64,000 bases of DNA from Thermococcus sp. 21S7 (lineage in GTDB: Archaea > Methanobacteriota_B > Thermococci > Thermococcales > Thermococcaceae). The DNA lies in assembly GCF_012027615.1 (NCBI RefSeq), contig NZ_SNUT01000003.1:186001-250000 (forward strand). The letters are read 5' to 3'. The notes beneath the pieces were generated by a model, which saw nothing but the letters and a program-made list of their open reading frames with translations, was not told the DNA's origin and searched no databases. Positions within the stretch are counted from its first letter, which is position 1. Every line of letters starts with the position of its first letter. Of the stretch, positions 42,418-46,867 are shown one piece after another. The translations under genes were made by a program, and so were the position numbers.

Positions 42418-43908
42418 TCACGTATTTAATGGTGGCAGGAGCTGGGAGAAGAAAAGAGAATACTTTAAATACTCAAGAGCAACTTTTTCATTATATTCAA
42501 TATAAAGTTCCACTGTTCGTTTGGCTATTTCCAAACGTTTTTTGCTATTTTCCCATGCTTTAAATGATTGCTGAATCAATTGAGAAATTTTTTGTTGAAC
42601 TTGTGGGCATACTTTTGGAATGACAATCCTATTAAGCGAATCATAAGGAATCGCTGTTAATATTGTCCCTTGAGCTTCTCTTACTAAGTATATTTTTGAT
42701 AATACCTTTAGCAAGACCAATAATGTTTCTTTGTTTATTTCCTTTTCCTTGAAAACAAAAAATCCGGTAGATGCAACTAAATTGTTCTTATCAAAGTGTA
42801 TCAATGCAATTTTATCTATGGAGCCCTCCACAGAAGACATAATTACATATCCTTTTTTTACTTCCATTCTCGCTCTACTGGGCAAGTCTTCGCCTGAGAT
42901 TTGCTTTGTTTGTTTTACTACACCCAAATTGGGATTAATATCAGCAAGTTCAATGTAGTCGTAGGTTCCCCCTTTATTCACTTTTATTTTTTTCTTTGAA
43001 ATTTCAACTAAATGTGGTAGATATCCCCAACCGTTTTTGTAATTCTTTATCACATCTTCAATCTCATCATATTTTGGATCCCAGTACTCTGCATCCATTC
43101 TGTCTTTTTTTGTAACATCTGAAAGCATCCTTATTGAAATGTTTTCTTCTTCCTCAAAGTCTTTTCCATCAATCTTTATCTTCTTTGTCTTTGGCTTCCA
43201 ATTTTTAAGGCTTAATTCGTTTAATAAAATATGTTCAGCCTGTCTATAAAGTTGCTCTGCCCTTTTTCTCTCTTCATAAGCTGTTATAACAAGTTTCTCT
43301 ATGAACTTTTGGAAAGTATTAGAGGGAACAGGAATTTTTAAAGATTTAAGCTCTTCCGCATTTATGTTAGCTTGATTAACAGCTCTTCTCATAACCCTTC
43401 TCAATGATATCCTTCCATATTTTGTGTTAAGATATACAGTTATATAAAAGTTTGTAAAGTAATTCTTTGCTCTAACTATTATTAGATACGATGCAAAAGT
43501 GTGATCTCCATCCAGTAAGTAAATTCCCGTCCTACCCACGAATTCCTCTGAGTTTACTCGATTAAATAAGATATCGCCTTTTTCTAATTTAAACTTTTGG
43601 AATGTCTTTGAATCTATTTCCACATATTTACAATTTGAGTCATCTGCCAAGATGCCTATTATATCGTCCATTTTAAGGATTTTATAACCTACTTTCTCTT
43701 CGTTCATGGCTAATGAAAGTCCATATTGAACTTTAGAAACTAAATCACCAATACGACACCACTTTTTCTTTGTAATTATCTTCTCATTTTTCAAATAAAA
43801 TGGATCGTAATATTCAGCATCAATTCTCAATTCTCCTTCCAATTCCGAGATATTAACTATTGAGTATTCTATATTATAGTATCTTCCCTGATGTTTTGCT
43901 GTTTTCAT
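42418..43908 (-). CDS. hsdS: Restriction-modification specificity subunit (HsdS-like, two TRDs)
   Basis: 496 residues with two target-recognition half-domains. Each is introduced by the same motif, RIDAEYYDPFY at 28-38 and RMDAEYWDPKY at 270-280, and each is followed by a TRD and a long conserved helix (EERKRAEQLYRQAEHILLN in the first repeat). The twofold design reads a bipartite DNA target for the methylase-nuclease encoded upstream. The start overlaps the HEPN-type gene by 4 nt (ATGA). Codon use is strongly AT-biased compared with genes outside 42.4-46.9 kb, indicating horizontal transfer. Confidence 0.88.
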   Translation of the reverse strand: MKTAKHQGRYYNIEYSIVNISELEGELRIDAEYYDPFYLKNEKIITKKKWCRIGDLVSKVQYGLSLAMNEEKVGYKILKMDDIIGILADDSNCKYVEIDSKTFQKFKLEKGDILFNRVNSEEFVGRTGIYLLDGDHTFASYLIIVRAKNYFTNFYITVYLNTKYGRISLRRVMRRAVNQANINAEELKSLKIPVPSNTFQKFIEKLVITAYEERKRAEQLYRQAEHILLNELSLKNWKPKTKKIKIDGKDFEEEENISIRMLSDVTKKDRMDAEYWDPKYDEIEDVIKNYKNGWGYLPHLVEISKKKIKVNKGGTYDYIELADINPNLGVVKQTKQISGEDLPSRARMEVKKGYVIMSSVEGSIDKIALIHFDKNNLVASTGFFVFKEKEINKETLLVLLKVLSKIYLVREAQGTILTAIPYDSLNRIVIPKVCPQVQQKISQLIQQSFKAWENSKKRLEIAKRTVELYIEYNEKVALEYLKYSLFFSQLLPPLNT

Positions 43909-44876
43909 TTTCTCACACCTCTTTCTTGTAAAATTCTAATGTTTTCTTCGGTCAAATGTTTGAGAGCTAGGTATGAGTATTCAAATAGTGATTGCCAGTC
44001 TTCATCCATAGGATCAATAATAAAATGAAAAAGTATATTTCTCAATTTATATGCAAAGTCTAGAAACCATTTTGTCAGTTCCTCATCGAAGTATTGGGGT
44101 TTATTAGGTATTTCGAGGGTACTTTGGTTTATATCGTCTATTGCATTATGGGGTCTACGTGGGAAAATATTTTTGATGTCTAATTCTTCATAGAGCTTTC
44201 TCTCGATATCTCTTAAACATTCATCATTGAGAAAATTAATTCTTCTTTGTTTCCCTCTTTCACTGAGACGTTTGTTGCTGTTGATTATATGTTCTATTTT
44301 TTTTCTTACAGTTGACAAAACTTCCTCTATAAATTTTCCCTTTTCTTCAAAAATTCTGCTATTTTTAACTTTTTCTGAAAGAGAAAATCCAGTCTCTATA
44401 CTATCAGCTCCGAAATAATCCCTAAACTTTCGACGGTCATCCGTTAGTATGATTTTAAGATGTCTCTCTCGACTATTCAGATGAGCCTTCAATGAAAGTT
44501 TCGTTGTTTTACCTCTGTAAACATATAGAAATTCCTGATAATAATTATCATTGTAGGTGTAAAAAATTTCAAAATAATCCCTCAAAAAAGGACTTGAATT
44601 TAATGTCTCATTCTTTGCTTTTAAGTATGCATTTAATACATTCCTAACAAAATCTTCATCTATTTTTACAAGAATCTCGTTAAAAAGTTGTTCTTTGTAT
44701 TTCTCTAGGATATCACGATCTCCTCTACGTTCCCGTGTATCATTAGAATCCAGAACAAGCTCTTGAAGAGATGCAAGAAAAGTAAACCACGTCTTAATAA
44801 ACATAGTAATATAATCTGTTTCTATTAGTGATAACCAACTTATGTATTTTTTTCTTGTTGTATCTTGTGAAGGCAT
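43905..44876 (-). CDS. Hypothetical protein with HEPN-type motif inside a restriction-modification operon
   Basis: 323 residues, mostly helical, highly charged, no signal or membrane segment. Near the C-terminus (R279-H284) it has RNILFH, which fits the RNxxxH (Rx4-6H) active-site motif of HEPN ribonucleases. The surrounding helices are FLDFAYKL before and WQSLFEYSYLALKHLTEENIRIL after, as in HEPN folds. The N-terminal 250 residues match nothing I recognise. It starts at ATG 44876, directly after the methylase stop, and overlaps hsdS by 4 nt, so it is made together with them. By analogy with PrrC/RloC-type nucleases carried in type I loci it could be an RNA-cleaving back-up defence, but that is inference. 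Confidence 0.7.
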   Translation of the reverse strand: MPSQDTTRKKYISWLSLIETDYITMFIKTWFTFLASLQELVLDSNDTRERRGDRDILEKYKEQLFNEILVKIDEDFVRNVLNAYLKAKNETLNSSPFLRDYFEIFYTYNDNYYQEFLYVYRGKTTKLSLKAHLNSRERHLKIILTDDRRKFRDYFGADSIETGFSLSEKVKNSRIFEEKGKFIEEVLSTVRKKIEHIINSNKRLSERGKQRRINFLNDECLRDIERKLYEELDIKNIFPRRPHNAIDDINQSTLEIPNKPQYFDEELTKWFLDFAYKLRNILFHFIIDPMDEDWQSLFEYSYLALKHLTEENIRILQERGVRK

Positions 44877-46661
44877 TTATTCCACCTCCACATCATCTAA
44901 GAAATCAAATGCTTCATCCCCCTCATCTTCTAATCTCTTTTTTCCCCACTTAATGAAAGCATCTGCTATGTCAAACAAATCAGTTTGGTAGACAGGATTT
45001 CCTTTTTCATCGAACACTGGATCACCATTTTCATCTGTTACAAATATGTAATTGCCAGAGTTGTCCTTGAACGGTATCTTTGAAACCGCAAAGAATATGG
45101 GATAATCCTTGATCTTTGGATTCCCACCTTCGTCAAGTTCTTCTTCTTTCCATTTCCTCAAGAGTAGAAGTGATGTTTTTGTTCCTGTGTGTGGCTTAAA
45201 CGAATTCCCATGAAGCCCAATGACTGCTAGTATCCTTGCCTTTTTCATGATGAATTCCCGAATGTACCTATCTTTTGCGTTATTGAGCACCCCCTGCGGC
45301 AACACAATTGCTAACCTACCACCAGGTTTTACCATGTCTAAAGCCCGTTCAATAAACAGGACATGCCTGTCTATCTTAGAACCGGGTTTCCTTTTGCTTT
45401 CTGGGACGATATCATAAAGAGCCTTTAACCATTCTTCTTTTATATCTCCTGCAAAGGGTGGGTTAGTCATCAGAATATCAAAGTTAAGTTCCTTAAAGCG
45501 TTCATCTCTGACAAGGTCTTCTTCCCTTAAATCAGCTTTTAACTTTTCGCTCCACCGTATAAATTCCAAGGAGTTTTCTTTGTATATATGTGATCTACCA
45601 TCCCCTGCAATTAGCATAATGGCCCTTGAAATCTTAGTGGCTTTCTCTTCAAAATCTATCCCCCACAGGTACGTCCTGGCATATTCTTCTCTCGCCTTTT
45701 TGTTCGCAATGTTATATTTGTCCCACACATACTGCATGGAATGGACGAGAAAACCTGCACTACCACAGGCAGGATCAATTATGTACTCCTGTCTGTGTGG
45801 GTTTAACATCCTAACTGTTGCATCTATTATTACTCTTGGTGTAAAATACTGCCCTTTTTTTGATTTTGAAACTTCTGGTACGAGATATTCAAAAGCCTCA
45901 TCTATTACTCTTAAATCCGCCCCAAAAAGTTTCACTTCCTGCATTTCTGCAACACATACGCTTAAATGCTCTGGTGTTAACTTTATTTTCTCGGTTTTTT
46001 CGAATATTCCTTTCCATTTCTGCTTTGCTCCTTCAAAAAGTTCAGAGATCACTTTGTACGTTGTTTTTGGATCCTTATATTTTCTAAATTTCAGCTCTCT
46101 GTTTTTTCTGTAATACTCCGCCTCTATCTCATCAAATAGCTTTGCGTAGATTAGTTTGAAGATTTCATTGAAACTGTCAACACCAGAGTTTGCCAAAACT
46201 AGCTCTTCAAGAAGCTCAATAATTTCTCTTAGAGACTTTTTCTTTTTTCGGGCTTTTTTTTCCAACTCGTCAAGAGTCCATTTTCTGTTTAGTACAATAT
46301 CAGCCACTTCAATTGCAGGATTGCTAGTATCTTTGACTTCCAAATACTCTTCATAAGTGGGTATATCTGGCAAGTTATCATCGAATTCTTTCGGATAGGG
46401 GCGATAAAGAATCGTCATTTCTTTCCCGTTGATTGCAACTCCCAGTGGGGAACCTTCTGCATTTAAATAGCTTTTCAACTGTGATATATTCAACCTTTCG
46501 TGAGGGGCCTTTACTTCGATTATAATCCAAGGCGTTATATTATCTTGCTGATATACCACAATATCCGCCCTTTTCTTTTCTCTGCCAAAGCTCACTTTTT
46601 CTTCGATTTTTATCAGATTCAGAGGATAATTATAGTTATCAGTTAATTCAAACAAAAACAA
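44877..46661 (-). CDS. Fused PD-(D/E)XK nuclease / N6-adenine DNA methyltransferase (type IIB/IIG-like RM subunit)
   Basis: At least 594 residues. Residues 1-75 match the N-terminal nuclease domain of type I R subunits with D33 (RADIVVY) and E49-V-K51 (IIEVKAP). A helical spacer follows, then a gamma-class adenine methylase: motif I DPACGSAGF at 296-304, motif IV NPPF at 400-403, preceded by GQYFTPR. No helicase domain is present, so this resembles BcgI-type A subunits that cut and methylate with a separate S subunit. The only start, TTG 46661, cuts into a conserved helix: upstream in the same frame reads KKAEEIVRQ before a stop. The N-terminus may be lost by frameshift relative to the 65-residue ORF just upstream. 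Confidence 0.82.
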   Translation of the reverse strand: MFLFELTDNYNYPLNLIKIEEKVSFGREKKRADIVVYQQDNITPWIIIEVKAPHERLNISQLKSYLNAEGSPLGVAINGKEMTILYRPYPKEFDDNLPDIPTYEEYLEVKDTSNPAIEVADIVLNRKWTLDELEKKARKKKKSLREIIELLEELVLANSGVDSFNEIFKLIYAKLFDEIEAEYYRKNRELKFRKYKDPKTTYKVISELFEGAKQKWKGIFEKTEKIKLTPEHLSVCVAEMQEVKLFGADLRVIDEAFEYLVPEVSKSKKGQYFTPRVIIDATVRMLNPHRQEYIIDPACGSAGFLVHSMQYVWDKYNIANKKAREEYARTYLWGIDFEEKATKISRAIMLIAGDGRSHIYKENSLEFIRWSEKLKADLREEDLVRDERFKELNFDILMTNPPFAGDIKEEWLKALYDIVPESKRKPGSKIDRHVLFIERALDMVKPGGRLAIVLPQGVLNNAKDRYIREFIMKKARILAVIGLHGNSFKPHTGTKTSLLLLRKWKEEELDEGGNPKIKDYPIFFAVSKIPFKDNSGNYIFVTDENGDPVFDEKGNPVYQTDLFDIADAFIKWGKKRLEDEGDEAFDFLDDVEVE

Positions 46662-46669
46662 TTGCCGTA

Positions 46670-46867
46670 CTATCTCCTCGGCCTTTTTTGATTCTTCTTT
46701 TCATCTAGGATCAGTCTCTCTTTTCCACTGGCATCGTGACTTTTTATATACCATTTACCCTCTCCTTTTTCATAAATCTTAAGTTTTTCCAGATGAGTTA
46801 TTAGCAGAGGTAGCTCTGCTTTTGCATTTGGGATAATCCGGTTTATAATATCCATCCTCCCGCTCAT
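46670..46867 (-). CDS. Small ORF leading the RM operon, possibly the displaced N-terminus of the methylase gene
   Basis: 65 residues (MSGRMDIINRIIPNAKAEL... ending EKKNQKRPRR), lysine-rich and soluble. ATG 46867 has GGGAGATGGGAGC upstream. Its last codons overlap the run of A and G where the nuclease-methylase frame opens, and a single-nucleotide shift there would join the two into one protein. As it stands it would be a separate small protein of unknown role. I cannot choose between these readings. Confidence 0.5.
   Translation of the reverse strand: MSGRMDIINRIIPNAKAELPLLITHLEKLKIYEKGEGKWYIKSHDASGKERLILDEKKNQKRPRR

Follow-up and report, generated by a model that had tools for sequence, protein, structure and literature searches.

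A candidate HEPN endoribonuclease gene between hsdM and hsdS in an hsdR-less restriction-modification operon of Thermococcus sp. 21S7

The presence of HEPN RNases in restriction-modification (R-M) operons is an established idea (Anantharaman et al., 2013, PMC3710099). The same work reports no fewer than 16 HEPN clades from R-M neighborhoods and, with PrrC and EcoprrI as the model, proposes that the RNase is silenced by the R-M proteins until they are neutralized or overwhelmed (PMC3710099). Here we compare the described systems with gene X, located in a 64,000-nucleotide stretch of the Thermococcus sp. 21S7 genome (the window; contig NZ_SNUT01000003.1, positions 186,001 to 250,000). According to the list of open reading frames, X is the second of three genes on the minus strand, following hsdM and preceding hsdS (Table 1). 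In the open-licence papers searched, there was no description of the X family in company with an hsdR-less R-M fusion.

PrrC, encoded with the type Ic system EcoprrI, is similar in that a HEPN-type nuclease gene lies among hsdM and hsdS and its product is silenced by the R-M proteins, although for X this silencing is only proposed. However, PrrC and RloC combine HEPN with an ABC ATPase whereas X has no ATPase domain, the PrrC/EcoprrI operon includes hsdR whereas the X operon does not, and X contains a long insert that matches nothing known. The R-M-linked HEPN families (AbiJ, AbiU2, ApeA, Ymh, pEK499_p136, DUF4145, and others; PMC3710099) carry an Rx4-6H motif with N after the R, as X does, and share with it an R-M neighborhood and a predicted role as a suicidal RNase, which for X is proposed. 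X differs from these families in matching no Pfam model, in its own N-terminal block (WxxxxExD[YF]xxxF[IV]KxW), and in the length and variability of its insert. In MNT-HEPN toxin-antitoxin systems an MNT antitoxin gene is adjacent, but there is none among the open reading frames of the window operon. In the type IIB systems, which cut DNA on both sides of their site and include BcgI and BsaXI, a single chain combines the nuclease with the methyltransferase and S is a subunit of its own. The window operon shares this arrangement, but BcgI and BsaXI are described as RM and S only. Furthermore, the nuclease part of the window HsdM is, unlike theirs, of the HSDR_N_2 type and its cleavage of DNA is only predicted. 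The window HsdM and HsdS also resemble MAD2 and MAD5 of the MADS system, far below the family cut-offs; no other MAD proteins are encoded in the three-gene island and X has no PADLOC match.

Table 1. Features of the hsdM-X-hsdS operon (window coordinates).
Feature	Positions	Strand	Basis
hsdS, 496 aa, DNA specificity subunit with two TRD stretches	42418..43908	(-)	Pfam Methylase_S x2, PADLOC Specificity_I
Gene X, 323 aa, candidate HEPN endoribonuclease	43905..44876	(-)	ORF, junctions, homologues, invariant columns
RNILFH, codons 279-284, putative HEPN Rx4H active-site motif	44025..44042	(-)	Invariant R, N, L, H in 7 sequences
N-terminal block W-x4-E-x-D-x4-F-x-K-x-W, codons 14-35	44772..44837	(-)	Invariant residues, predicted helix 22-41
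hsdM, HSDR_N_2 (PD-(D/E)xK type) fused to N6 adenine methyltransferase	44877..46661	(-)	Pfam, PADLOC
Putative nuclease motif ADIVV...IIEVK of the HSDR_N part	46509..46565	(-)	Alignment of relatives
Probable true hsdM 5' end, other frame, ATG 46867	46691..46867	(-)	Three-frame translation

The first-pass annotation had placed a methylase gene immediately upstream of X, a description that captures only part of the product: a methyltransferase is present, but within an HSDR_N-N6_Mtase fusion rather than as a plain HsdM. The fusion matches Pfam HSDR_N_2 at its N-terminus (3e-17), N6_Mtase (3e-35), and the PADLOC model MTase_I (PDLC03034, 1.5e-168), and among solved structures the type IIB R-M fusion RM.BsaXI is its best relative. 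The D and ExK of the nuclease motif are kept in all 10 of the HsdM relatives aligned. The island has no hsdR and its operon consists of hsdM, X, and hsdS only; hsdR-type genes are present elsewhere in the genome, on contig C1. With the TTG start that the ORF finder lists, HsdM is 594 aa long. Its probable true start lies in another frame, and the two frames are offset by a -1 step close to an A6 run (~46684-46690). This frame break (46660-46867) may reflect an assembly error, phase variation, or decay, and it means that the system encoded in the window could be defective. An A6 run (AAAAAAGGG) also marks a -1 break in another, distant hsdM of this type (L025, 5640-5720), located inside HSDR_N. 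On plasmid pAQ6 of Picosynechococcus PCC 7002 (L017, 7001-10540), the R-M fusion is apparently joined to S in a single 1179-aa chain and X is absent.

The open reading frame of X was found at the annotated positions, on the minus strand with an ATG start and a length of 323 aa, and both of the tight junctions claimed for it could be read. Its ATG directly follows the hsdM stop (GGAATAA/ATGCCT, a gap of 0), while its own TGA stop lies inside the ATGA of hsdS, giving a 4-nt overlap (AGAAAATGAAA). The three-gene island looks acquired because its GC content of 32-40% is lower than the 53-59% of both flanks, and because the two flanking genes are only ~0.8 kb apart in G040, another genome of the same genus. 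At this site, G040 carries a short minus-strand gene pair (L041, 1755-2560) which has, by eye, the look of a VapBC toxin-antitoxin module.

The earlier statement that most of X matches no family agrees with our profile searches, in which X was not covered by any model in Pfam, NCBIfam, PADLOC, or PHROGs and no known HEPN profile matched. Weak Pfam matches (DUF445 at 6e-4, Tub, and SWI2_SNF2) were dismissed as helical or coiled-coil noise, being far below the cut-offs and not recurring in homologues. A PDB sequence match to the DNA polymerase II large subunit (0.004) was also set aside as it covers an unconserved part of X, and the pEK499_p136 HEPN, considered as a short form of X, is a different gene of 166 aa.

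The homologue set comprises seven distinct sequences, namely the window X and six relatives originating from three Clostridia MAGs, a human-gut scaffold filed as phage, a viral contig, and a Klebsiella plasmid. A scan of 84,980 species genomes yielded the three clostridial relatives, each the third gene in an M-S-X operon, with ~100 extra C-terminal residues. The Klebsiella plasmid homologue (263 aa) and the 376-aa X ORF of the gut scaffold, both within an M-S-X gene set, were reached via the methylase, and the Klebsiella protein as query led to the viral contig (L021), where the 3' end of hsdS lies directly ahead of X. Near-identical copies of the Klebsiella plasmid gene are found in three E. 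coli chromosomes with the same M-S-X set. X adjoins hsdS at seven of seven distinct loci; the window locus and those found by way of X make up five of these, while the two reached via the methylase offer no independent evidence of linkage. Some relatives of the M-S pair occur without any third gene. Among 94 genomes of the family to which the window belongs, no other had X, apart from two marginal local matches (E ~0.004-0.005) that were discounted as they fall inside unrelated ORFs of 749-780 codons. No relative of X emerged when single-protein searches were run against plasmids, viral contigs, PDB, and PHROGs, and no further homologues came from a DNA pattern search or from clostridial genomes numbering several hundred (391, 74, and 396 in draws that overlapped).

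The surroundings of these relatives offer some additional observations. One of them concerns L018 (10386-14916) and ~465 other plasmid records: in hundreds of plasmids from Klebsiella, and in a few from other enterobacteria, the short X gene has been reduced to its 3' half, often unannotated. Two DUF262 (GmrSD_N) genes come after X where the Klebsiella locus is intact. Downstream of X in one clostridial genome (L004, 9235-16184) are a second N6 methylase, a GHKL-like ATPase, a response regulator, and an HNH-like gene, identified by eye and possibly forming another defence cluster.

RNILFH was found at R279 to H284, where it had been reported as a candidate HEPN active site. The Rx4-6H motif alone is weak evidence because 79% of composition-preserving shuffles of X contain one, and 21% contain the stricter R[NDH]x3-5H. 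Unlike the motif alone, its invariance across the seven sequences is evidence, of a predictive kind, for a HEPN RNase. Most pairs of sequences share only 14-32% identity (52% and 66% for the two closest), and only 13 columns out of 323 never vary. These are W14, E19, D21, F26, K28, W30, P242, R279, N280, L282, H284, P289, and Y302, almost all of them in two blocks (W14 to W30 and R279 to Y302). R279 and H284, the two residues on which the earlier proposal depended, persist together with N280 in homologues with as little as 17-19% identity to X, and the joint presence of all three among the invariant columns has a hypergeometric probability of 5e-5, with columns treated as independent. N280 supplies the polar residue expected after the R of a HEPN motif, giving an invariant RN-x-L-x-H. 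The acidic residues E19 and D21 lie within the N-terminal block, which is likely an acidic/basic helix completing the putative active site. As judged from sequence, the invariant residues fit the signature of a HEPN RNase, with RNx3H and acidic N-terminal residues. What links the long to the short homologues is mainly the two conserved blocks, with an hhalign probability of 17-20% and, in the C-terminal one, P ~0.001.

Structure prediction gave models of low confidence, with a mean pLDDT of 53 for X (~65-88 in the conserved helices, 55-88 by local block, and mostly <50 in the insert) and of 52-53 across X and a short homologue. In the AlphaFold model of X, RNILFH forms the C-terminal end of helix 259-284 and is followed by a loop and helix 292-322, consistent with the earlier placement of the motif between two long helices. 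A long low-confidence insert precedes the motif helix, and the N-terminal block overlaps helix 22-41, modeled at a block pLDDT of ~80. In HEPN domains helix 3 ends in the motif, a loop then leads on to helix 4, and variable inserts occur between helices 2 and 3 (PMC3710099). The predicted layout of motif and insert in X agrees with this description, and the low-confidence model puts the motif at the HEPN position, as opposed to an arrangement that the first-pass annotation had taken as fatal to its claim. Foldseek comparison of both models with PDB and BFVD returned nothing significant, only unrelated helical proteins. Using VIA-align, the X model matched YutE (1ylm; Z 5.2, 110 residues, rmsd 3.8), a value within noise for helical bundles. 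YutE is named as a HEPN protein (PMC3710099) and was the sole VIA-align match whose best alignment skipped low-confidence stretches. The resemblance of the modeled X to it is suggestive only. The VIA-align list for the short-homologue model was uninformative.

With moderate confidence, we interpret X as a representative of an unnamed family of predicted HEPN endoribonucleases that would serve an R-M system lacking hsdR as its back-up effector, in the manner of PrrC. A back-up shutdown role is probable because the relatives in gut bacteria and Escherichia keep both the putative active site and the neighboring genes. The helices near the N-terminus would assemble with the helix pair at the C-terminus into a HEPN core, which the large variable insert interrupts. 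HEPN domains typically function as dimers. The M, S, and X proteins would be co-produced, with X kept silent by the M-S complex or by the attachment of that complex to correctly methylated DNA. Foreign DNA that overwhelms or inhibits the complex could then release X to cut RNA (tRNA or mRNA) in a metal-independent manner, and the resulting growth stop would be like that caused by PrrC when EcoprrI is blocked. The three-gene operon probably guards the archaeon against foreign DNA.

Other explanations must be weighed against this one. X could have a HEPN-like fold and yet serve as an accessory R-M subunit, involved in RNA or DNA binding, assembly, or restriction control, rather than as a toxic RNase. 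Its constant position beside hsdS and the C-terminal extension of the clostridial homologues would suit such a subunit, and the catalytic model is itself a prediction. Nonetheless, HEPN domains thought to be non-catalytic lack the motif, usually its R or H, and the activity of PrrC and of the KEN domain requires both residues (PMC3710099); as RN and H are among the best-kept residues of X, we regard an accessory role as rather unlikely. Alternatively, X might be a toxin that has M or S as its antitoxin and stabilizes the R-M island rather than defending against phage. While the tight gene packing, the stop-start overlap, and the acquired look of the island in both GC content and flanking-gene spacing would fit, the operon contains neither an MNT nor any other small antitoxin gene, and we consider this quite doubtful as a full account. 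It also overlaps with the back-up effector model, given that stabilization and defence can coexist.

The least probable of the explanations, to which we give little credence, is that X is not HEPN at all but a helical protein of another fold, in which RNxLFH is structural or part of a DNA-mimic (anti-restriction) protein. The lack of a significant fold match and the low-confidence models are compatible with it. However, the residues that have been kept (an acid and K, RN, and H), and their position relative to the predicted helices, are those of HEPN nucleases.

Three related M-S operons, whose hsdM is a fusion like that of the window, carry third genes unrelated to X. These encode a 252-aa protein with RNHFFH (L025, 8941-9699), a GNAT-fused protein with RNTITH (L026, 11448-12680), and an Abi_C protein with RNKDSDAH (L028, 11403-12341); each of their RN...H motifs has a 7-16% chance of arising in shuffles. 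As a tentative and rather speculative extension, the HSDR_N-HsdM/HsdS pair may serve archaea and bacteria in general as a DNA-sensing module with swappable RNase third genes, in which unmodified DNA would lead to RNA cleavage and growth arrest over DNA cutting. The proposed swappable effectors would be the X family, the Abi_C protein, and the RNTITH and RNHFFH proteins.

As of 2022, couplings of HEPN and R-M had been characterized experimentally in E. coli only (PMC9296519). If our reading of X is correct, it would add a HEPN RNase family outside Pfam, NCBIfam, and PADLOC, one common to a Thermococcales archaeon, gut Clostridia, and enterobacterial mobile elements. It would also offer a simple three-gene system for testing the proposed coupling of R-M to suicide at the RNA level, for which the E. 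coli chromosomal copies would be a convenient model.
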